This document shows positions 33,695 through 44,937 of a stretch of DNA of 64,000 nucleotides, one piece after another; position 1 is the first letter of the stretch, and the number at the start of each line of letters is the position of its first letter. The translations under genes were made by a program, and so were the position numbers. Origin of the DNA: Iodobacter ciconiae (GTDB lineage Bacteria > Pseudomonadota > Gammaproteobacteria > Burkholderiales > Chitinibacteraceae); contig NZ_CP034433.1 in the NCBI RefSeq assembly GCF_003952345.1, forward strand, positions 2,170,001-2,234,000, in the 5' to 3' direction. Below the pieces are notes generated by a model. That model was not told where the DNA came from. It saw only the letters and a program-made list of their open reading frames with translations, and did no database searches.

Positions 33695-34468
33695 TCAATT
33701 CAGCAACATATTCGCCATCCCATCCAACCGACTTTTCACTGTTTCCCAGTGCGGCATCACTTGCCCCATTAAGCGATAAAATCGCTCACTGTGATTGTGT
33801 TCTGCTAAGTGGCAAAGCTCGTGCAAAATCACATAGTCGATGCAGTCTCTGGACGCTTTAACGAGATGAGGGTTTAGGGTTAAACGCCCGGCTGGTGAGC
33901 AGCTTCCCCACTGAGTTTGCATGGTCAGAACTCGGAGTGGTGGCTTGTCGCTCACCCAGAGTGCCTGCTCCAGCATGGTATCTAGCCTGCGTGCAAATAC
34001 TTCTTTAGCTCGCCCTTTGTACCAAGCAGCAAGCAATGCACTAGTTTTCTCAGCTGATTTTTCCCGCGCCGTGACTTCAATCTTTCCGCGCAACAACTTC
34101 ACGGATGGTTTTACAGCAGGGTTTTCAATCACCTTCAGCACATACTGTTTGCCAAGATAATAATGGCTTTCGCCGCTGATGTACTGCCGAGGGCGAACAT
34201 GCTCTAAGCGGCTGCCAAACTCGCGTAATTGCTGATAAATCCACCGGGCGCGCAACATGGCTGCTGCGATGACATCATCATCACTCGCAATTTCTGGCGC
34301 GCTGATTTGCACACGGCAATCTGGCAAAACCTTAATTAAAATTTTGCTGGCCTGACCAGATCGTGGCAGCCGTTCAAAACAAATTTGCTCATCGGCGTAA
34401 CTGAAACACAAATTAGTCTTGCTCGGTATGGGCTTGATAGTGACGTTCACCTCATCCCCCAGCAGCAT
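33695..34468 (-). CDS. YgjP/DUF45-type zinc metallopeptidase-like protein
   Basis: 257 aa. The C-terminal half has the zinc motif HELCHLAEHNHSERF (HExxH plus a downstream His) and WGSCSPAGRLTLNP, both characteristic of the YgjP/SprT-like family. The role of the family is not settled; members are very often encoded next to type I restriction genes. Its start overlaps the end of hsdR by 17 bases, so it is the last gene of the RM/defence operon and translationally coupled. A GTG seven codons inside (VNVTIKP) is an alternative start. Confidence 0.85.
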   Translation of the reverse strand: MLLGDEVNVTIKPIPSKTNLCFSYADEQICFERLPRSGQASKILIKVLPDCRVQISAPEIASDDDVIAAAMLRARWIYQQLREFGSRLEHVRPRQYISGESHYYLGKQYVLKVIENPAVKPSVKLLRGKIEVTAREKSAEKTSALLAAWYKGRAKEVFARRLDTMLEQALWVSDKPPLRVLTMQTQWGSCSPAGRLTLNPHLVKASRDCIDYVILHELCHLAEHNHSERFYRLMGQVMPHWETVKSRLDGMANMLLN

Positions 34469-37400
34469 TTAAACCAACACGGGTAATCTGCACCACCCAT
34501 TCAACCAGTGCTTTAGCCTGATCCATACCTGCGCCGATAGCTTTGCATTCGGCGAACAGCACAGGCAATAGCTGTTTACGAATATTTGACTCAATGTTTT
34601 GCGGATTAATCGAATGCTCGGCAACCGATTGCTCAACCATTTTGTCAATTTGAAAAGCCAGCCCCACCCATTTATCAACAATTTGGGCATCATTAATCGC
34701 AAACACCTCGGGCAAGGTTTTTTTGAATATGCCGAAATAAGCTTGAGCATGGCGGTTCCCCGCAAATGCATCGGGCAATTCATCCAACTGCCGCTGCTGC
34801 ACTTTTTCTTCAAACGAATGGAACAGCAGGTATTGCTTCAGGGGATGATCAAATAGCTTTTCTGCATCGTTAATCGCATCACGCAGCAACTTCGAAAAGG
34901 CTTCCTGCGCATAAGGATCATCGCGTAGCTCTTGCTCAATCATCCTAGCGACACGGGTTTTAATGATATCGGTTTCGTTGCGTGTTTTTTCCTCAGACCA
35001 ATCTTCTGGTTTGGGTTTAGTGCCCATTTTGCCAACTTCGTAAGTACCGCCTGGCTCCCTGACCTCAATACCCACCACATGCTTATCGAGCAGCTTTTTC
35101 ACCTGTACTGCGTAATCATCGTAGTTAATCGTATCACCAGAGTCCTGCTTTACCAGCAGACGCAAACTAGAAAACTGCTTTACCGCCTCTTTATATTGCT
35201 GGTGATCCGTATCACTAAAGCTTTTATCTTCAAAGAATGTAGCCGATTGCAGTGCAACCTTCATGCAGCCAGAGAACTCGGTTAACGCTTCGTAAAAATC
35301 ATCACGAACTTTCTGGTTCACATCAACCAGCTCACCGTTTCGGTCTTCCGTTTTCGGCACCAATACTTGCCGCAGTTGTTCGATGTCATTCTTGTTCTTA
35401 ACGCAGTCAAAAATAGCCCATAGCTGTTTGTATAAACGAGGCAGGCGCTTATATTCGGTACTCATCGGGTTATACAGCCCGGCAATATCATTGATGTCGT
35501 ATCCGCCCTGGGTGCGTGATGCAAGGTCCTGATACTTGGCAATGGTGGTATCCAGCTCAGCCAGAATGCCGCGATAGTCGATCAACAAACCGAATTTCTT
35601 CAGCGAGTGCAATCGATTTACACGAGCAATCGCTTGAATCAAATTATGCTCTTTGAGCGGTTTATCGATATAAAGCACGGTGTTTTTTGGCTCGTCAAAG
35701 CCTGTGAGCAGTTTATCCACCACAATCAGCAGCTTGAGCGAATCATCCTTCTCGAAGCGATCAATGATCTGCTTGGTATAGACCTGCCCATCCTGTGACC
35801 CCACGTTCTCTTTCCACCACTGCGTAACGATGGGCATCGTGGCTTCATCAACCTCCGAGTTACCTTCACGGGTATCGGGAGCGCTGATCACGACGGCAGA
35901 TTCAAACAGCCCAGCTTCATCAAGATATTTTTTATATTTGATAGCGGATACTTTGCTATCACAAGCAAGCTGCCCCTTCAGGCCATCATTGATATTCTTC
36001 ACAAAGTGATTAGCGATATCGAGCGCAATCAGCCTAATGCGATCTTCTGCACTATAAATCTGCCCTTTACGCGCAAATTTACTTTTCAAATCAGCTTTTT
36101 GTGCGGGTGTCAGCCCTTCGGTAATACGCTCAAACCACGTATCAATCGCACGCTCATTCACATCCAAATCAGGGATACGCTCTTCATACAGTAGCGGGGT
36201 AACCGCTTTATCTTCCACCGCCCGCTGCATGGTGTAGGCATGAACAATCGGGCCGAATTTACTGGTCGTTTTGTCGTCTTTTAATAAGGGCGTACCAGTG
36301 AATGCCACAAACGCCGCATTAGGCATAGCTTGCTTCATGCGGATATTATTTTCACCGCCCTGGCTGCGATGGCCTTCATCAATTAATACAATGATGTCAG
36401 CACTGGTATTCGTGCATTCTGGCATCTTGGTCGCGGTATTAAATTTGTGGATTAAAGAAAAAACAATACGCTCGGTACCGGTGCTAATTTGCTCAGCTAA
36501 GCGCTTGCCTGATGTCGCAATGGCTAGCTCTTTATCTTTTTTACCCGATAGCTCACCACCTGAAGCAAACGTTTTGGAGAGCTGGGTTTCTAAATCAACG
36601 CGGTCGGTTACAACAACAATACGACACTGCTTGAGTGAGTCATGCAGGATCAGTGCCTTACTCAAGAAAACCATCGTGAAAGACTTGCCAGAGCCCGTGG
36701 TGTGCCAAATCACGCCACCTTCCCGCCCGCCATCGGAACGGCGGGTATTGATACGATCAATCAAACGCTTAATGCCAAACACCTGCTGATAGCGGGCAAC
36801 AATCTTGCCGACCTTTTTATCGTACAAAGTAAAAAAGCGCACCATTTCCAGCAAGCGAGCAGGCATCAACAGGCTGATCAGCAATTTATCCTGCCCTGTT
36901 ACGGCCAGCTCACCGCCTGCCAGCAGCGATTGATACCACGTCAAATCCTTAGCCGGGCGATGATTGAAAAGGGAATCAGTCTGCAACGGGCTGATTGTTT
37001 TATTCTTAATCGCATACATCTGCGCATCAGAAATATCCTCTTCCCGCCAGGCCGCAAAAAACTTCTCCGGTGTGCCGCAAGTACCGTATCGGCCATCGGT
37101 GCCATTAATGGACAAAATCAGCTGGGCATAGGCAAACAGGCGGGGGATTTCATCATGGCGCTGGTTACGCAGCGATTGCGAAATGCCTTCGGAAATACTC
37201 GGGCCTTTATTGCCATCAGGGCGCTTAGCCTCAATAATTACCAGCGGAATCCCGTTCACAAAGCACACAATATCCGGGCGGCGGCTGTCGATACCACCCG
37301 AGCGGGTAACACTAAATTCTTCCGTGAACAGAAAGCTATTATTTCCTGGGGTTTGCCATTCGATCAAAGCAATTGTTGGATTGGCTTTTTTGCCATCCAC

Positions 37401-37736
37401 AAACTCAGTTACCGAAATACCATACAACATATGGTTGTAAAGCTTCTCGTTGGCATGCACCAAGCCTTCATTGAGCGCCGGGCTACAAACTTCGGCAATC
37501 AGCTTATCAATCGCCTTGTCAGACAGCGCTTGCTCACGGCCTTCGAAGCGAAAGCGGCGCGTTTGCAAAACCTGCCGCAGCTCATCGCGCAATACCACTT
37601 CATCTTGCCTGCCACCGCGCTTGGCTAAAGCCTGATCGGGCGGCAGGAAAGTCCAGCCAAGATTGGTTAGTAGCGTTAGCGCGGGGATTTTGGCGCTGTA
37701 TTCTTCCTGAAATTTTGGGGCAAACTGATCGGTCAT
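34452..37736 (-). CDS. hsdR: Type I restriction enzyme, R (motor/nuclease) subunit
   Basis: 1094 aa. The N-terminal PD-(D/E)xK nuclease shows RRPDIVCF (D155) and IIEAKRPD (E169, K171). The SF2 translocase part has Walker A TTGSGKS (K351), LIDEGHRSQ (motif II), AFTGTPL (motif III), and ARVNRLHSLKKFG (motif VI region). HsdR cleaves unmodified DNA after ATP-driven translocation, in complex with HsdM2S. All motifs look intact. It is separated from its hsdM and hsdS by an OLD nuclease/UvrD helicase pair but stays on the same strand with a 49-base gap, so a single transcript is likely. Confidence 0.95.
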   Translation of the reverse strand: MTDQFAPKFQEEYSAKIPALTLLTNLGWTFLPPDQALAKRGGRQDEVVLRDELRQVLQTRRFRFEGREQALSDKAIDKLIAEVCSPALNEGLVHANEKLYNHMLYGISVTEFVDGKKANPTIALIEWQTPGNNSFLFTEEFSVTRSGGIDSRRPDIVCFVNGIPLVIIEAKRPDGNKGPSISEGISQSLRNQRHDEIPRLFAYAQLILSINGTDGRYGTCGTPEKFFAAWREEDISDAQMYAIKNKTISPLQTDSLFNHRPAKDLTWYQSLLAGGELAVTGQDKLLISLLMPARLLEMVRFFTLYDKKVGKIVARYQQVFGIKRLIDRINTRRSDGGREGGVIWHTTGSGKSFTMVFLSKALILHDSLKQCRIVVVTDRVDLETQLSKTFASGGELSGKKDKELAIATSGKRLAEQISTGTERIVFSLIHKFNTATKMPECTNTSADIIVLIDEGHRSQGGENNIRMKQAMPNAAFVAFTGTPLLKDDKTTSKFGPIVHAYTMQRAVEDKAVTPLLYEERIPDLDVNERAIDTWFERITEGLTPAQKADLKSKFARKGQIYSAEDRIRLIALDIANHFVKNINDGLKGQLACDSKVSAIKYKKYLDEAGLFESAVVISAPDTREGNSEVDEATMPIVTQWWKENVGSQDGQVYTKQIIDRFEKDDSLKLLIVVDKLLTGFDEPKNTVLYIDKPLKEHNLIQAIARVNRLHSLKKFGLLIDYRGILAELDTTIAKYQDLASRTQGGYDINDIAGLYNPMSTEYKRLPRLYKQLWAIFDCVKNKNDIEQLRQVLVPKTEDRNGELVDVNQKVRDDFYEALTEFSGCMKVALQSATFFEDKSFSDTDHQQYKEAVKQFSSLRLLVKQDSGDTINYDDYAVQVKKLLDKHVVGIEVREPGGTYEVGKMGTKPKPEDWSEEKTRNETDIIKTRVARMIEQELRDDPYAQEAFSKLLRDAINDAEKLFDHPLKQYLLFHSFEEKVQQRQLDELPDAFAGNRHAQAYFGIFKKTLPEVFAINDAQIVDKWVGLAFQIDKMVEQSVAEHSINPQNIESNIRKQLLPVLFAECKAIGAGMDQAKALVEWVVQITRVGLNAAGG

Positions 37737-37785
37737 TACTTATCCTGCTGTTTTTAGCAACGGCTAATTCATACGAGAGGGGTGG

Positions 37786-39681
37786 TTACTCGATTTCAAT
37801 TACGAATCGAGACACTCGCTGAAATCTGCGGTCACCCCATGGCATCATTCGCTGCTTTGGGTAAGTGATGAATAACCATCGTTTTGCTCTAGTGATGGCA
37901 ACAAACGCACTGTTACGTTCTTCATCAATCTCTTTTGGTGTCTGCGCCCGGTAATCAGGAAATACCCCCTCACACATGCCCATCAAGAAAACAATATCTT
38001 TTTCCAATCCTTTCATTGTATGAACTGTACTTAAGGTCAAGCCTTTATCGGGTCCAGTATCAACCAACTGCCCCAAAGCCAATGCATTGCGAAATGCAGC
38101 CAAAGAGCTGCCTAGCCCTTTACGTTTAAACAATGTCCATGATTGACCAAATTCGTCTAATTCAGCGTGGCTCAATCTAAGCTCTTCTGATTTTGCATCA
38201 GTTAAACACTCACTCTCTTGGCTTATTGCATCAAGCTTCGCTTTAAATTTATCAATGAATTTTCGAATATTTGGCTCTTCTGCATCCAATTGATTAATTT
38301 CACCAATTAGGCTTGAGTACAGTTTGGCATTCTCATCGTTAAGACTCAGGGCATTCTCTGATATGGCGCTTAGAACATCATCTCCCCATTCTTTAGGCTC
38401 TGGAATATCCAATACAGAGCAAAGTTTTCTACCATCAACCCAATCTTTAGAATTGATTTTTAGCCGAACTGCATAGTCAAGTATCTTTCCAAACACAGTT
38501 GCGCGTTCTAGTTGTCGCTCCCCTTTTCTCAATGAGAAAGGGATTCCTTTTTCTTTAAGGGAATCTTCAAACTTGCCAAATACAAAACGATTTCTCGCTA
38601 TGACAACCATTTTATCGAGACTTATTTCACCCTCAATTTCATTGTCAAACTTTTGACTTAGAAGTCGTTCGATTGAAGCAGAAATCCATTCAGCCTCATC
38701 TTCTTCTGTTGTAAAGTGGATAATTTCAACTTTGCCTTCAAGCGCATAATCTAGCTCTACTTGAGCGCCTGGTCGTAGTTTATTTGCAGCCCTTATTACG
38801 GCTTTTGAGCTACGATAATTTTCTTTTAGCTCAAAAACCTGAGGCCTAAAATCGGCAATAAAGTCGTTGCAGAAGAAATCTTTGGAAGAACCGTTAAATC
38901 CGTAGATCATTTGATTTGGATCGCCGACCATCAGAACACTTTGAATGGCATCGCCACAAAGTGCTTTTATGAATTCATATTGGGCACGATTCAGATCCTG
39001 AGCCTCATCGACACAAATATGCTTGTACTGTGACCGATATATCTTGGCTACCCAATCATGAGTAAGTAGGATTTTATGCGCATAGACCAAGATATCGTCA
39101 TAATCAATGCCGCCGCTATTCAATAAAGCAGACTGGTAGTCTTGAAAAACTTTCCAGATATTGCCATCAGGATATTGTTCAGCCACATCAAACTCGGTTA
39201 ATAATTCACGTTTGATTTTTGAAAAAATATCCATGTAACTCTGTAAAATTTTCTTCCTTTCTTTGCGCTCGCCAGAGTTGCTACCCTCAAGATAGGTATC
39301 AATATCAACCCCTTCATCACGCAGTGACTGAAGAAATACTTCCATCCGATCTTGATCACGGTCGTAAATGTGCAGTTCGGGAGGTAAGCCAACTGTATGG
39401 CCATATTTCTCCAGGACACGCTGTGCAACAGAATGAATGGTTGCAATCCAGGCACGGTCTTCTGCCTGTTCACAATCCTCTAAACGTGTTGCCATCTCTT
39501 CAGCGGCTTTATTGGTGAAGGTCAGCGCAATGACCCCTTCCTTTTTAGTGTTCTGCAAGAGAAATCGTACCCGCTCAGTCAGCACACGGGTTTTACCAGA
39601 TCCCGCAGAGGCTAGAACCTGAATTGCTTTATACATATCGGTATTAACTATATCAGCCTGAGCCAATGAGAGATTTAGCAT
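37786..39681 (-). CDS. UvrD/Rep-like superfamily 1 helicase, GajB-like partner of the upstream OLD nuclease
   Basis: 631 aa. SF1A helicase motifs in order: ASAGSGKT (I, residues 24-31), ALTFTNKAAEEM (Ia), CVDEAQDLN (II), MVGDPNQMIYGFNG (III), ELKENYRS (IV), LSTVHTMKGLEKD (V) and AFVAITRAKRWLF (VI). All look functional. Pairs of OLD nuclease plus UvrD-like helicase define Gabija anti-phage systems, in which GajB follows GajA as here. This helicase is longer than the founding GajB (~494 aa). The ATG at 39681 lies two bases after the nuclease stop and has GGAA upstream; an ATG four codons earlier would overlap it. Confidence 0.85.
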   Translation of the reverse strand: MLNLSLAQADIVNTDMYKAIQVLASAGSGKTRVLTERVRFLLQNTKKEGVIALTFTNKAAEEMATRLEDCEQAEDRAWIATIHSVAQRVLEKYGHTVGLPPELHIYDRDQDRMEVFLQSLRDEGVDIDTYLEGSNSGERKERKKILQSYMDIFSKIKRELLTEFDVAEQYPDGNIWKVFQDYQSALLNSGGIDYDDILVYAHKILLTHDWVAKIYRSQYKHICVDEAQDLNRAQYEFIKALCGDAIQSVLMVGDPNQMIYGFNGSSKDFFCNDFIADFRPQVFELKENYRSSKAVIRAANKLRPGAQVELDYALEGKVEIIHFTTEEDEAEWISASIERLLSQKFDNEIEGEISLDKMVVIARNRFVFGKFEDSLKEKGIPFSLRKGERQLERATVFGKILDYAVRLKINSKDWVDGRKLCSVLDIPEPKEWGDDVLSAISENALSLNDENAKLYSSLIGEINQLDAEEPNIRKFIDKFKAKLDAISQESECLTDAKSEELRLSHAELDEFGQSWTLFKRKGLGSSLAAFRNALALGQLVDTGPDKGLTLSTVHTMKGLEKDIVFLMGMCEGVFPDYRAQTPKEIDEERNSAFVAITRAKRWLFITYPKQRMMPWGDRRFQRVSRFVIEIE

Positions 39682-39683
39682 GC

Positions 39684-41450
39684 TTATTTCCATTCTTTTA
39701 GTTTATTAAAGGAATCGATAACGGCTTTTGGAATCATCGCCTCAATAGGTTTGGAGTTTTTTTTTGTGGCAATTATTTCCGCCAAAAACCCTGCATACGA
39801 TGCCTTCGATGATCTCATCAACTCTACTAACTGAACATTGTTCAACTTTTGGATTTCGGCAGTCTTAGCGGCAATATATTTTGGTTTTTCACTCCCTTTA
39901 GTTTCTGTCTTGACTAAAGCTTCAACAATTTCATCTCTAATGTTTTGAACATTAACCAGCTCTGCTTCAATATCATTTCCTGAACTTAAGAAGTTGAGGC
40001 TAAAATTATTGTCACTCAACGTCAGTTTCTTCTCTTCGATTATCTTTTTAATCTGAGATTTGATCTCTTTTTCCGTATTCCCATCATTGTCACTAACAAT
40101 ACAAACAGGAATCCCAAAGCTTAAGGCCATTTTCACAAAAGGCGCATAATTCTTCCCACCGACACTGATACAGTTAACCCCAGAGGCAAATGCAGATCTT
40201 TTAAAGAAAACTGAAAACATAGCAGGAATCAACTGCTCTTCAGTAACACCTTCAAACAATATTATCGCTTTAGAAAAAAGCAACTCTCCTCGGAAACGCA
40301 TTACTTCTCTGTGGAGCATATTAATTTCTTCAGCATCCAAACCAGGAATCAATTCTGTAGCAACTACTTTCCCTGATGATCGAACCAATCCTCGTAGGTT
40401 TTCTAGGTTTGATATTCCAATTACATAGGGAGAGTGAGTGCTAATAATGACTTGGCCAGAACTGCTTTGCAGTTGTTCAAACAAGGTTCTTTGAGCATTG
40501 GGGTGCAAATGAGCTTCAGGCTCCTCTGCGGCAATGATGGGAAAAAACGGCTCTTTTTCGTCATCATGTGTCTTAGCCATCAATTCTATAAAGGCCTTAA
40601 CCGTCAACATTGATGCCCAACTCCGAGTTCCCATGCCATGATATTCCATGGAAAATGAACTCTTGTCCGTTTCACCGAAATGAACACCGAAACGTTTAGA
40701 TAAATCTCTGATTTTTTTAGGAAAAGGAGTTAATTCTGTCTTGCCTGCACCATCAAAAGATTGATTTAACGTGTCCAAATGCTCTTTAAGCTTGTTTAAT
40801 GGCGCGCTTTTTTCGATGGCTTGCTTATTAATAGCCGCGACCAACTCTTCTAACTCAGCAACATCCTTGGCATCGTATTCAACGCTAGCCAAAACCCTGC
40901 CAATAAACGAGGACTTTTCTTTAAGTTCACTATGAATGTCACGTTGCGCATCAATCGAAATGAAGGGGATTGCATCTAGGCGTTTCAAGAATTTATTTTT
41001 TGGGTCTACTTTTACAACTTGCCACCCATCAAGAGCAGGCCACGCATTCAGATGGAAGCGTTCAATGTTGAAGCCTCCTTTGATTTTATCTGGCTTGGCA
41101 ATAGTTCTTAGAGCGAAGTACTGCCGACCACTTGTATCTGATTGGACTGTATCGCCAAAAACATCAACCCATTTATCTTCAAACTGGCCAGGCTTACCAG
41201 TTTTGTCGAGAGCAATGATGCGAAGGTCGATGGTTATACTATCCTTCTGCTGATCCGTCGCACTGATATGAAAGTCTTCATCTGATAAAAATCGAGAGTA
41301 ATCACCCAGCGCCAATTGCAAGGCCTTGATTACCGAAGTTTTCCCAGCATTATTCTGTCCAAAAAGGACAGTAACTCGTGGGAGAGAAACTTCGGTGTTT
41401 TCTATACCACGGAAACCACAAATTCGTACGACATCAACTTGAATACTCAT
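39684..41450 (-). CDS. OLD-family ATPase/TOPRIM nuclease, GajA-like (class 2 OLD)
   Basis: 588 aa, close to the length of GajA. The N-terminal ABC-type ATPase has Walker A FGQNNAGKTS (residues 30-39), Walker B AAEEPEAHLHP and the switch region ISTHSPYVIG. The C-terminal TOPRIM domain has FEGVTEEQ (E400, E404) and SDNDGN (D454, D456), the metal-binding residues. Class 2 OLD proteins next to a UvrD-type helicase are Gabija nicking nucleases controlled by nucleotide. Its ATG overlaps the end of hsdS (ATGA-type junction), so it is translationally coupled to the RM specificity gene. Confidence 0.87.
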   Translation of the reverse strand: MSIQVDVVRICGFRGIENTEVSLPRVTVLFGQNNAGKTSVIKALQLALGDYSRFLSDEDFHISATDQQKDSITIDLRIIALDKTGKPGQFEDKWVDVFGDTVQSDTSGRQYFALRTIAKPDKIKGGFNIERFHLNAWPALDGWQVVKVDPKNKFLKRLDAIPFISIDAQRDIHSELKEKSSFIGRVLASVEYDAKDVAELEELVAAINKQAIEKSAPLNKLKEHLDTLNQSFDGAGKTELTPFPKKIRDLSKRFGVHFGETDKSSFSMEYHGMGTRSWASMLTVKAFIELMAKTHDDEKEPFFPIIAAEEPEAHLHPNAQRTLFEQLQSSSGQVIISTHSPYVIGISNLENLRGLVRSSGKVVATELIPGLDAEEINMLHREVMRFRGELLFSKAIILFEGVTEEQLIPAMFSVFFKRSAFASGVNCISVGGKNYAPFVKMALSFGIPVCIVSDNDGNTEKEIKSQIKKIIEEKKLTLSDNNFSLNFLSSGNDIEAELVNVQNIRDEIVEALVKTETKGSEKPKYIAAKTAEIQKLNNVQLVELMRSSKASYAGFLAEIIATKKNSKPIEAMIPKAVIDSFNKLKEWK

Positions 41451-42655
41451 TTATGATTCTCCATAACTTTGACACGTACCTTGCCTGTCAACAATTGTTG
41501 CATCAGGGCTTTTTTCTCTTGTTTCAGGCCGTCGAGCTGGGATTGCAGGGTTTCGATTTCTTGGTCGGCAGCAGATAGAATAGATGCGATCTTTCCCTGT
41601 TCCTTAATCGATGGCAGTAAAAAAGGGAATCCACAAAGTGCATCAAACCCCACTGAATCACGGACCGAGCCCTGTGTACTTCCATTAATGCGCTGCTGAG
41701 CTTCGTTTGACTGCATCCAATTCAAAAAATAATCAGAATTCAATTGATCTGGATTGATACTAAAAACAACATACATTGGACTGAGCAATCCCTCTTCAAA
41801 GCGATCCAACCGTGAAAAAGAACCAACATTCAGTCGAGATGGGTTATAGCCAAACTGGCCTTTTTTCACAATTTTGTAGTTTGATACATCATCGCTTGCG
41901 ACTCGTTTTGAAAACTGCTCTTCAGGCAGCACGAAACCGCTATGGTTTGTAATGCTTAAAACGCGATCGATTAAGTTGGAACGGTTTCTTGCCTTTTCTT
42001 CATAAAGCACCGCTTTTAAATGAATACGTTTCCATTTTCCCTCAAACCCCGGAAAGCGTTTTTTGCCGGTGAGCAGTTGTTGCATCAGGGCCTTTTTCTG
42101 CTGGCGGGCGAGGTCGAGCAGGCGCTCGGTGGTGGCGATGGCCTGATCCCAAGTCGAGAGGATTTGGGCGATTTTCTTTTGTTCTGCCAGTGGTGGTGTC
42201 GATATTCTGTAATGTTTTAACTCGCCAGAGTTAAGGTTTGGTTTTCCCCCGCCTGCACATAAACGATTAACTTCATTAATTCCAATTTCAGAATTTATGT
42301 GAGTGGCCAAATAAAATGAATCTAATAAATTTTCTTTAGGTCGTGCAATTAGTGTTGTGAAGGTCAGTGCGCCTTCAAATTCTTGAGGTACTACGCAGGC
42401 TTCACCGATGTTAGATCCGGTTCTTACTGCAACAACATCACCTCGTCTAACCATTTTTGATTTGTTACTTTTTGCGAAATCCTCATCAATAAATACCACC
42501 GAGCTAGAGTCGAAATAATTTCTCTTAATGTTCTGATTCCGAATTAACTTAACTCCAGATGGCCGCATGAATGGAGTAACGGAAATAGCTAAGCCAACTG
42601 AAATTTTTTCGCAAACATCATCAAGCTCTTTTGCAAGCCATCCCTTAGGCAACAT
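41447..42655 (-). CDS. hsdS: Type I restriction-modification specificity subunit
   Basis: 402 aa with the standard two-repeat S-subunit plan: TRD1 (~1-150), conserved coiled coil ending QQKKALMQQLLTGKKRFPG, TRD2 (~210-340), and a second coiled coil ending KQEKKALMQQLLTGKVRV. The duplicated KKALMQQLLTGK segment is a hallmark of HsdS. It sets the bipartite DNA target. The ATG at 42655 (MLPKGWLAKEL) overlaps the hsdM stop by about 11 bases; an in-frame upstream ATG lies inside hsdM and gives non-family sequence. It runs directly into the OLD nuclease gene with a 4-base overlap. Confidence 0.94.
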   Translation of the reverse strand: MLPKGWLAKELDDVCEKISVGLAISVTPFMRPSGVKLIRNQNIKRNYFDSSSVVFIDEDFAKSNKSKMVRRGDVVAVRTGSNIGEACVVPQEFEGALTFTTLIARPKENLLDSFYLATHINSEIGINEVNRLCAGGGKPNLNSGELKHYRISTPPLAEQKKIAQILSTWDQAIATTERLLDLARQQKKALMQQLLTGKKRFPGFEGKWKRIHLKAVLYEEKARNRSNLIDRVLSITNHSGFVLPEEQFSKRVASDDVSNYKIVKKGQFGYNPSRLNVGSFSRLDRFEEGLLSPMYVVFSINPDQLNSDYFLNWMQSNEAQQRINGSTQGSVRDSVGFDALCGFPFLLPSIKEQGKIASILSAADQEIETLQSQLDGLKQEKKALMQQLLTGKVRVKVMENHK

Positions 42656-44168
42656 AACCCAGCTCCTGCAAATACTTCGACATCTCGGTTTCCAGCACAT
42701 TCAATTGCACTTTCAGCTGCTCACGCTCGGCACGCACCGCTAGCAGGTCGATTTCGGTTTCTTCTTCAAAAGTATCCACGTAGCGCGGAATATTCAGGTT
42801 GAAGTCGTTGTCTTTGATCTCGTCAAAACTGGCCACATAGGCGTATTTTTCTATATTCACGCCATCGCGGTAGGTGGCGACCACCTTGGCGATATTGTCA
42901 TCCGTCAGCACATTCTGGTTTTTACCGGCTTTGAATTCGCGGCTGGCGTCGATAAAAATCACATTGGTATCTGATTTTTCTTTAGAAAAAATCAGAATTG
43001 CTGCCGGGATGCCAGTGCCGTAAAACAGTTTTTCTGGCAGGCCGATCACCGCATCAAGCAGGTTTTCTTCGATCAGCTTTTGCCGGATGGCACCTTCAGT
43101 GCCACCACGAAACAGCACGCCATGCGGCACCACCACGCCCATGCGGCCGGTACCGGGTTTGAGTGTTTCGATCATATGCAGAATAAAGGCGTAATCGCCC
43201 TTGGTTTTGGGAGGAATACCACGGCGGTAGCGGTCGAATTTATCGTTCTCCGCATCATCATGGCCCCATTTTTCTAAGGAAAACGGCGGGTTGGCGGTCA
43301 CGATGTCAAACAGCATCAAATCACCGTTTTTATCCAGCAATTTGGGGTTGCGAATGGTGTCGCCCCATTCGATTTTATGGTTGTCTTCGCCATGCAAAAA
43401 CATATTCATCTTGGCCAGCGACCAGGTCGAGCCAATAGCTTCCTGTCCGTACAGTGCGTAGTTCTTGCTACCGTGATTGCTCACCACCTTGCGGCCACAC
43501 TTCATTAATAGCGATGCCGAGCCGCAGGCTGGATCGCAAATGGTGTCACCCGGCTGCGGATCAAGCAGCTCGGCAATCAGCTCAGAAATTTCTGGAGGAG
43601 TGTAAAATTCGCCCGCCTTTTGGCCACCGCTGGCGGCGAAGTTTTTGATCAAAAATTCATAGCCATTACCGATAATATCCAGTGCACCGACACGGCTTGG
43701 CTTAAGGTTGAGTTCGGGCTTGGCAAAGTCTTCCAAAAGATGGCGCAAGATGGTATTTTTCTGTTTTTCTTCACCCAGCTTGTCGGTGTTAAAGCTGATG
43801 TCCTGAAACACGCTTTTGCCTGCATCTTTAAGCTTGGTGCCGTTGGCTTCTTCAATCGCGTGCAGTGCCTGATCAATACGCTCGCCATTACCCGGCTCGT
43901 GGCGGTGTTCGTACAGCACGTAAAAGCTGGCCTGAGCAGGCAGCACAAAACGCTCGTTCTTGAGCATTTCTGTAATCAGCTCCGGCTCGTCGCCGTATTC
44001 TGCCTGGTAGCCGTCATAGTGATCCTGCCAGACGTCCGAGATATATTTCAGAAACAGCATGGTGAGCACGAAGTCTTTGTAGGTATCGGCGCTAATCGTG
44101 CCGCGAAAGGTATCGCAAGCCGCCCATAGTGCTTTGTTGATATCGTCTTGATTAATCTGATCACTCAT
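42645..44168 (-). CDS. hsdM: Type I restriction-modification DNA methyltransferase (N6-adenine)
   Basis: 507 aa. The N-terminal HsdM_N domain (~5-150) is followed by the N6-adenine methyltransferase domain with SAM motif CDPACGSASLL (D212 onwards) and catalytic NPPF (N293). It methylates the host sites chosen by HsdS and is part of the restriction complex. AAGGAA lies upstream of the ATG and overlaps the end of a 36-aa ORF. Length and motifs are those of complete HsdM proteins. Confidence 0.96.
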   Translation of the reverse strand: MSDQINQDDINKALWAACDTFRGTISADTYKDFVLTMLFLKYISDVWQDHYDGYQAEYGDEPELITEMLKNERFVLPAQASFYVLYEHRHEPGNGERIDQALHAIEEANGTKLKDAGKSVFQDISFNTDKLGEEKQKNTILRHLLEDFAKPELNLKPSRVGALDIIGNGYEFLIKNFAASGGQKAGEFYTPPEISELIAELLDPQPGDTICDPACGSASLLMKCGRKVVSNHGSKNYALYGQEAIGSTWSLAKMNMFLHGEDNHKIEWGDTIRNPKLLDKNGDLMLFDIVTANPPFSLEKWGHDDAENDKFDRYRRGIPPKTKGDYAFILHMIETLKPGTGRMGVVVPHGVLFRGGTEGAIRQKLIEENLLDAVIGLPEKLFYGTGIPAAILIFSKEKSDTNVIFIDASREFKAGKNQNVLTDDNIAKVVATYRDGVNIEKYAYVASFDEIKDNDFNLNIPRYVDTFEEETEIDLLAVRAEREQLKVQLNVLETEMSKYLQELGYVA

Positions 44169-44296: not shown

Positions 44297-44878
44297 TTAT
44301 TTCAATAAGCCATTAGCAATGGATGTCAGCAACTGCTCGCCATTACGGCGTAGTTGCTCAATCAATTGCAATTCTTGTTTAATCGTATTAGCGAGTTTGA
44401 TAATGATCTGCTGCTTATTTAGCGGAGGAATTGCAATAGGTGTTGCCTCCAAAGCGCTGCGTTTAATCGCCTTGGTCAATGTGCCCTCTGAATTAAGGTC
44501 GAAATATCTTTGGCTGGGCTGCTGATTCAGAAACCAGCACAGATACTCAGGCAGGATGCCGTGATGGGTAACTCGCACCACAAAAAAGTGCGGCGCAGCA
44601 ACAGCCAGCTTACCCATAGTCGTGAGCGTGTCATCAATCAGCACCGCGTAATTATGACTGCCACGGGCAGCAACCAGAATATCACCCACCTGCAGCCAAT
44701 CATCACGGCGGCCTGCCGGCTCAGTTTCAACACACTCAGCCCAGCTCACACCTTGCTGTGGCGAGGCATCTTTCATTTGCACAGCAATGACGCCTGAGCC
44801 CGGAGACTCTGGAACCTTGCCCCGGAAGGGATGGCCAGCGGCAATGTTAGCGAGATCAGAAAGTGATTGTAGCTGCAT
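44297..44878 (-). CDS. Half-size HsdS-like protein (single target-recognition domain)
   Basis: 193 aa, about half of a normal S subunit. It begins MQLQSLSDLANIAAGHPFRG, has TRD-like features (GDILVAARGSHNYAVLID, PEYLCWFLNQQ), then a single conserved helix (IPPLNKQQIIIKLANTIKQELQL region) and stop. Half-S proteins can dimerise to recognise palindromic-type bipartite targets. It is the first gene of the defence operon, ahead of the 36-aa ORF and hsdM, while a full hsdS follows hsdM. A good sigma-70-like promoter lies directly upstream. Confidence 0.8.
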   Translation of the reverse strand: MQLQSLSDLANIAAGHPFRGKVPESPGSGVIAVQMKDASPQQGVSWAECVETEPAGRRDDWLQVGDILVAARGSHNYAVLIDDTLTTMGKLAVAAPHFFVVRVTHHGILPEYLCWFLNQQPSQRYFDLNSEGTLTKAIKRSALEATPIAIPPLNKQQIIIKLANTIKQELQLIEQLRRNGEQLLTSIANGLLK

Positions 44879-44908: not shown

Positions 44909-44937
44909 AATATCTACTCTTTAACAATTACTGTCAA
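44909..44937 (-). promoter_or_regulatory. Sigma-70-type promoter of the defence operon
   Basis: Minus strand TTGACA (44932-44937), 17-base spacer, GATATT (44909-44914), about 30 bases upstream of the half-HsdS start. Confidence 0.6.

Follow-up and report, generated by a model that had tools for sequence, protein, structure and literature searches.

A portable Gabija cassette, probably, in the hsdS-hsdR interval of a type I restriction-modification operon of Iodobacter ciconiae

Results and discussion

A complete second defence module, a gajA-gajB pair of the Gabija family, lies between hsdS and hsdR of a type I restriction-modification (RM) operon, on the same strand as its host genes, in the window examined here (the whole 64,000-nucleotide stretch of Iodobacter ciconiae DNA that was analysed, part of a 3.88 Mb single-contig genome). 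We interpret the pair as a portable Gabija cassette carried in the hsdS-hsdR slot of a mobile RM-YgjP operon, with which it would be co-expressed and for which it would provide a second layer of defence linked to the first by DNA ends, and we give this reading a probability of roughly 0.6. Its directly observed parts are gene content, intact motifs, a recurrent position, a swappable slot, a deviant base composition and an empty chromosomal site in congeners. Type I RM loci are known to harbour nested defence genes, and the question is whether the partners cooperate or one merely transports the other. The present locus offers a clean case for it: the same Gabija clade is found with and without RM genes, and among congeners one RM operon occurs both with the Gabija pair and without it.

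Organization of the operon

The operon is encoded on the minus strand and is transcribed in the order one-domain HsdS-like gene, hsdM, hsdS, gajA, gajB, hsdR and YgjP-like gene, with domains assigned using Pfam, PADLOC and NCBIfam profiles. The sequence-only reading had described hsdM, hsdS, an OLD-TOPRIM nuclease, a UvrD helicase and hsdR in that order; the minus-strand open reading frames confirm these five genes and their junctions, but the first and last genes of the operon had been missed. The first gene (44297..44878) encodes a 193-residue protein with a single specificity domain (Methylase_S 27.7 bits, cut-off 22; PADLOC Specificity_I 51 bits) and lies 128 bp upstream of hsdM. It follows, by 30 nt, the best sigma-70-like promoter candidate of the operon, on the same strand (44909..44937; TTGACA, 17 nt, GATATT). 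This is a consensus match only and a weak one, as shuffled sequence would be expected to hold 19.5 sites of this kind and the region holds 12. The type I DNA methyltransferase gene hsdM (42645..44168; N6_Mtase 347 bits, TIGR00497 above cut-off) is followed by the specificity subunit gene hsdS (41447..42700), whose product matches Methylase_S in two stretches (90 bits) and PADLOC Specificity_I from residue 16 (346 bits); translation more likely starts at an inner ATG at 42655, the residue from which the profile matches run. The restriction/translocase subunit gene hsdR (34452..37736; TIGR00348 477 bits, above cut-off; HSDR_N and SWI2_SNF2) overlaps the YgjP-like metallopeptidase gene that ends the operon (33695..34468; PF01863 190 bits). 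By these profiles hsdM, hsdS and hsdR are all present with their catalytic domains. Compared with solved relatives, HsdM scores best against 7vru (309 bits), then against the EcoR124II M subunit (248 bits) and the EcoKI M subunit (about 102 bits). The five solved relatives found for HsdR are all 1038-residue HsdR chains, one of them named EcoR124II; the system may be IC-like, closer to EcoR124/EcoprrI than to EcoKI.

The slot between hsdS and hsdR (37736..41447), delimited by a break in homology with congeners and a drop in GC content, is occupied by gajA (39684..41450), encoding a class 2 OLD-family ATPase-TOPRIM nuclease of 588 residues, and gajB (37786..39693), encoding a UvrD/PcrA-like helicase of 635 residues. 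The hsdS stop and the gajA start overlap by 4 bases (41447-41450), as had been noticed from the letters alone. The spacing of gajA and gajB, described earlier as either two bases or an overlap, amounts to an overlap of 10 bases when the first ATG of gajB is used and to a distance of 2 bases when the inner ATG at 39681 is used. A gap of 49 bp separates gajB from hsdR. In a consensus scan, the minus strand immediately upstream of gajA showed no promoter-like site; together with the overlapping genes, this makes co-transcription of hsdS, gajA, gajB and hsdR likely; the earlier proposal that the pair is co-expressed with HsdMS is likely correct on the same grounds.

A 37-bp stretch, recognized through cross-matches to congeners, is found in both halves of hsdS (41481-41517 and 42063-42099), and its second copy also marks the left edge of the cargo slot.

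GajA and GajB belong to the Gabija family

Assignment of the OLD-UvrD pair to Gabija, proposed before any profile had been consulted, was borne out by full-length PADLOC matches, the nuclease to the GajA profile PDLC00067 (783 bits, residues 1-587) and the helicase to the GajB profile PDLC00132 (907 bits, full length). GajA combines the Pfam domains AAA_15 and OLD-like_TOPRIM and carries a Walker A motif, GQNNAGKT, from residue 31. Its TOPRIM residues E400, D454 and D456 (full-protein numbering; one lower in the alignment, whose first row is without the first Met) are invariant in all 23 alignment rows and align with E379, D432 and D434, the TOPRIM residues of BcGajA (PMC10781630). In GajB, a Walker A motif (ASAGSGKT, 28-35) and a DEAQD box (229-233) are found, and G31, G33, K34, T35, D229, E230, Q232 and D233 are invariant in 18 of 18 rows. 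The residues in these alignments uphold the earlier statement that the catalytic motifs of both proteins are intact.

Single-chain models agree with these assignments, the fold of GajA matching the Gabija nuclease and that of GajB matching UvrD and GajB. The pair thus resembles known Gabija systems, such as that of Bacillus cereus VD045, in being a two-gene pair with full-length profile matches, the same fold, and TOPRIM and helicase motifs. It differs from the B. cereus VD045 system in lying inside a type I RM operon, in its distant sequence (GajA has weak sequence similarity to BcGajA, with 15-21% identity in structure alignments) and in its longer GajB, which has 635 residues against 493-499 for BcGajB and is closer to UvrD. 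In Gabija, GajA and GajB form a 4:4 complex. SMC and Rad50 heads also match GajA in structure, with Z scores that are equal or slightly higher; the alignment to them spans about the first 390 residues, and we did not regard them as kin.

The operon and its slot in congeners

The same RM operon was found in two of eight congeners (L190 and L191), with HsdM 93-94% identical to that of the window. Their slot contains an anti-phage dCTP deaminase gene, followed by genes for a MoxR ATPase and a ViaA-like VWA protein. These assignments come from profiles run on L190, where the dCTP deaminase exceeds the NCBIfam NF041025 cut-off and reaches 564 bits in PADLOC while the VWA protein scores 251 bits, below the NCBIfam cut-off of 500; L191 was assigned by its DNA homology to L190. 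Along the operon, homology between the window and the congeners is lost at 41480, with 33 bp of hsdS still to come, and is regained at 37724/37719, 12-17 bp into hsdR. A search at E 1e-20 found the window's GajA in none of the eight congeners. The operon itself is mobile: the genes flanking it in the window, where they stand 11.5 kb apart, are separated by 236-734 bp in five congeners, including the genomes of L190 and L191.

Base composition also sets the cargo apart: GC content is 40.1% in gajA, 41.4% in gajB and 42.7% in hsdS, against 50.1% in hsdM and 47.9% in hsdR. Among the embedded gajA loci of other genomes (defined below), gajA has a lower GC content than the hsdM and hsdR measured there in 20 of 21 (the exception is L016; L061 was not measurable). 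The low GC content of the cargo fits an independent origin, but low GC is also common in defence genes generally.

The nested arrangement recurs in distinct RM systems

GajA relatives were sought by a scan of genome contigs, from which the best 80 of 95 loci were kept; their neighbours were annotated with profiles seeded from the window's genes, so that some loci scored as free of RM may be missed RM loci. Within these best 80 of 95 loci, hsdS ends no more than 100 bp from gajA in 18 of the 71 with at least 700 bp of upstream sequence (as it does in L044, whose flank is shorter), and 10 loci share the window's overlap of exactly 4 bp. On the other side, 63 loci extend 700 bp or more beyond the pair; hsdR starts no further than 350 bp away in 9 of them and no further than 5 kb away in 17. 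Flanks of 3 kb or more upstream and 3.5 kb or more downstream are available in 41 loci, and in 10 of these hsdM and hsdS precede and hsdR follows the pair. The nested order that had been expected to be conserved elsewhere therefore recurs in many unrelated genomes, which makes the arrangement more than chance; the contrary outcome named in advance, a pair in this position only here, is not what the relatives display. Two loci depart from these patterns: L038, labelled as having no RM genes upstream, has hsdR directly upstream of gajA, and L135 has, by eye only, apparent type III RM genes ahead of gajA.

We called a locus embedded when hsdS lay at most 2.3 kb upstream or hsdR at most 5 kb downstream. 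This applies to 22 of the best 80 of 95 loci (17 on both sides, 5 ending before hsdR is visible), while 31 of the 80 have neither hsdS nor hsdR there despite flanks of no less than 3 kb on the upstream and 3.5 kb on the downstream side; a further 12 are not embedded upstream and have too little sequence downstream, and 15 are beyond judgement. On a tree of 82 GajA proteins (the 80 loci, the window and L135), built by a quick method that left 22 of 79 inner branches weak, the label 'embedded' has to change 18 times, and branches with strong support require at least 16 of these changes. Shuffled labels cluster to the same degree, 78 of 500 shuffles giving a count as low. Judged from these sequences, embedding is not a lineage trait, and members of one Gabija clade with and without RM genes are intermixed. 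The host systems vary as well: in 16 other embedded loci HsdR is 25-33% identical to that of the window and does not join its group but forms at least two groups of its own, which implies that the pair sits in quite different RM systems. Long branches leave the deepest joins of the HsdR tree unsure, and the Gabija label changes only twice on it because the other rows had been picked as relatives of the window's HsdR.

These observations bear on the claim that the pair is a partner of HsdMS and not a Gabija system working independently. That claim is not supported in a clade in which 31 of 80 loci (best 80 of 95) are without RM and scattered among the rest, and a dedicated cooperation with HsdMS likewise sits badly with the divergence of the host HsdR and with two congeners that keep the same operon around other cargo. 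Direct cooperation, whereby HsdMS would recruit GajAB to unmethylated DNA or GajAB would process HsdR products within one complex, draws on the repeated, tight and often 4-base coupling of gajA to hsdS. We nevertheless consider it decidedly improbable, given that congeners with a nearly identical HsdM carry something else, that embedded and free GajA loci intermingle on the tree and that the host RM proteins are very different. From the RM-free clade members, the divergent host HsdR and the exchange of cargo in congeners, we conclude that any link would more likely run through shared expression and DNA substrate than through protein contacts. The recurrent 4-base coupling could still reflect a closer cooperation than the portable-cassette reading allows.

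Two other GajA models were considered for a control clade. PDLC00062 was found in 5 of 398 genomes, and the four loci fetched, too few to conclude from, show no hsdS or hsdR beside gajA (L167 has a weak hsdM-like match of 31 bits and L170 is cut at gajA). PDLC00094 was dropped: it matched in 35 of 398 genomes, mostly through the second half of the profile only and in two families, and its matches are probably chromosomal OLD proteins. I. ciconiae itself encodes a second OLD-like protein of 582 residues (G000:C1:3783149-3784828) that matches the GajA model PDLC00094 with 270 bits over its second half.

The hsdS-hsdR gap is a general cargo bay

The locus was also approached from its RM side. HsdR homologues were searched for in 274 genomes of the class, 55 of which had a match at 1e-60, and in 398 genomes of the phylum, 17 of which had one at 1e-150 (own genome counted in both). 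The related operons compared comprise 28 loci, namely 26 from these searches (12 plus 14) and the two congener loci. A YgjP gene lies between -17 and +12 bp from the end of hsdR in 26 of the 27 related operons with sequence there, the exception being L160 (L162 is cut before that point). The one-domain HsdS-like gene, at 44297-44878 in the window, precedes hsdM in 16 of the 21 related operons with hsdM and enough contig (L123, L126-L128, L130-L132, L153, L155, L157, L158, L160, L163, L166, L190, L191). It is mostly accompanied by a full hsdS, and its product could be a specificity subunit used as an alternative or for regulation.

Both an hsdS-type gene and hsdR are visible in 22 related loci, with a gap of at least 200 bp in 18 and a closed, cargo-free slot in four (L127, L130, L160, L166); in L157 the full hsdS is missing and only the one-domain HsdS-like gene lies upstream. 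None of these 22 slots contains a GajB-like gene. Profiles identified PDC-S21 with AbiD (L123), Septu PtuA-PtuB (L124, where hsdS is off the contig), PDC-S20/KAP (L126), PDC-S05/RhuM (L128), an OLD-like protein with DUF3800 (L131), DUF3800 (L132), PDC-M07A (L133), PDC-S12 (L154), AbiD (L155), PDC-S02 (L156), and RloB- and Fic-type proteins (L158); the slots of L153, L157, L159 and L161-L164 were read by eye only.

A second set, assembled by HsdR, consisted of 80 loci taken in score order among the matches listed, omitting loci already fetched, partial matches and most of those with short upstream sequence. Among the matches listed, hsdS lies upstream in 73 of the 80, adjoining hsdR in 20, and is missing in 7; the 53 slots of at least 200 bp include some that may contain an unrecognised second hsdS. 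A GajB-like gene was found in 0 of these 53 slots, so Gabija is a rare slot passenger in this Pseudomonadota sample (among the matches listed). Going by its own loci, the present Gabija clade nevertheless uses such slots often. Ten slot proteins of the second set, picked by eye, yielded three PrrC, two HEC-05, one PDC-S05, one Orf5 and one PDC-S02 match and two weak or absent matches. In a separate NCBIfam scan of cargo proteins, 6 of 10 matched nothing.

By its gene contents, the hsdS-hsdR gap is a general cargo bay holding quite different defence genes in close relatives. Since the slot holds other defence genes there, the Gabija pair is best regarded as exchangeable cargo and not as new machinery made for this operon. 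The same variety would be expected from pure hitch-hiking, in which the slot tolerates insertions and supplies a ready promoter and both systems act without interplay. Many unrelated kinds of cargo, the existence of cargo-free slots and truncated hsdR 5' copies at module joints (see below) all accord with it. We regard it as possible but somewhat unlikely, because it leaves unexplained why so much of the nameable cargo is defence-related.

Truncated hsdR 5' copies mark some slots

A truncated copy of the start of hsdR was found inside the slot in 5 of 30 slots, 12 of the 30 belonging to Gabija hosts (L013:5792-5941, L076:13556-13683, L077:13666-14011, L080:13681-13785 and L190:10244-10385). 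These copies extend 112-337 nt into the gene, three also including 6-16 bases before it. Compared with the intact hsdR that follows, their identity is 56-83% at the protein level and 71-91% at the DNA level. They lie at the end of gajB in L076, L077 and L080, and after the next cargo gene in L013. In four loci the copies abut the end of a cargo gene. The 53 slots of the second set contain one clear copy (L223) among the matches listed; a weak match in L264 (28 residues, E 3e-5) was excluded from the count. Later segments of HsdR were found in 0 of 30 slots of the first set and in 0 of 53 of the second (among the matches listed). The C-terminal 120 residues of HsdS were found in 0 of 30 and in 2 of 53 slots (L209 and L254, among the matches listed), and HsdM, sought in the first set only, in 1 of 30, L157, whose 'slot' includes its own hsdM. 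The slot of the window contains no truncated hsdR 5' copy.

Going by these counts, the mark is real but uncommon. It suggests that cargo may at times be added by recombination at the start of hsdR, leaving the old 5' end stranded, and we infer that modules enter some slots in this way. A broader version makes the hsdS-hsdR gap a site of recombination-driven cassette exchange with serial addition at the hsdR start, where Gabija would be favoured through the DNA ends made by type I enzymes in a two-step relay; we advance this only tentatively and consider it unlikely. The hsdR 5' copies at module joints offer a concrete and testable mechanism of cargo acquisition.

A second defence layer linked by DNA ends

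According to the portable-cassette reading, HsdMSR would form the first layer and cut unmethylated incoming DNA, while GajAB would form the second and act on linear foreign DNA whose ends RecBCD does not handle. Such RecBCD-free ends might arise, for instance, when a phage shields its ends or blocks restriction. In the most economical link, restriction itself would yield linear ends, and phages that shield ends from RecBCD or escape restriction would next meet GajAB. The two systems would then be tied together by co-expression and by a substrate that both share, DNA ends, with no dedicated protein contact. The second step is extrapolated, and inferred, from Pseudomonas aeruginosa Gabija, which is reported to target linear DNA on which RecBCD is not acting and to prevent circularisation (PMC12407980); a review likewise describes Gabija action on linear DNA (PMC12904381). 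Both recB and recC, each above cut-off, are present in the genome of the window. The former (G000:C1:2235796-2239398) begins about 1.8 kb past the end of the window and the latter (3808854-3812036) lies 1.6 Mb away. Such a separation of recB and recC is unusual.

Among the specific rivals, the main one assigns GajAB a guard role of the PrrC kind. As with PrrC in EcoprrI, the intact RM complex would keep GajAB silent, and a phage restriction inhibitor, a DNA mimic or similar, would release it. This is modelled on PrrC, which is reported to be embedded in a type IC RM locus and activated by inhibition of EcoprrI (PMC12707154), and on PARIS, which has an AAA-TOPRIM protein and is reported to be triggered by Ocr (PMC9122126). 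PMC12255303, citing another source, states that Gabija is activated on sensing Ocr, and PrrC-like genes do occur in hsdS-hsdR gaps of the second set (among the matches listed). We find such a role improbable for GajAB, as many genomes carry the same GajA clade without adjoining RM genes and the host RM proteins are too divergent to offer one conserved contact surface.

Relation to other embedded defence systems

In EcoprrI, prrC is placed between hsdS and hsdR. The I. ciconiae locus resembles it in having a defence gene embedded in an RM locus, of type IC in EcoprrI according to PMC12707154, and differs in that PrrC is an anticodon nuclease guarding restriction, whereas a DNA nuclease-helicase pair with no known guarding role is found here. 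Defence modules between hsdS and hsdR are already known, as exemplified by DarTG2: the RRDM island of enteropathogenic Escherichia coli comprises RptR, HsdM, HsdS, DarTG2, HsdR and an M48 peptidase (PMC12255303). The two loci are alike in that a defence module separates hsdS from hsdR and that a metallopeptidase gene lies downstream. The cargo is DarTG2 in RRDM and Gabija here, and the first gene encodes a repressor in RRDM and a one-domain HsdS-like protein here. The downstream metallopeptidase is of the YgjP type in I. ciconiae and of the M48 type in the E. coli island.

Candidate defences proposed through 'guilt by embedding' correspond to the PDC and HEC families of PADLOC (preprint of Payne et al., as cited in PMC12255303 and PMC12988326). 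The cargo of the related operons matches PDC families, while Gabija, unlike those candidates, is an established system. Embedding of defences in type I RM loci is a reported trend (PMC12629846). Our literature search, whose scope did not extend to the preprint of Payne et al., which may report one, returned no precedent for Gabija exactly between hsdS and hsdR.

Outside the window, the same genome has one more pair of genes for HsdM and HsdR, separated by about 4.4 kb (G000:C1:911697-919746), probably, by gene content, a second type I RM locus.
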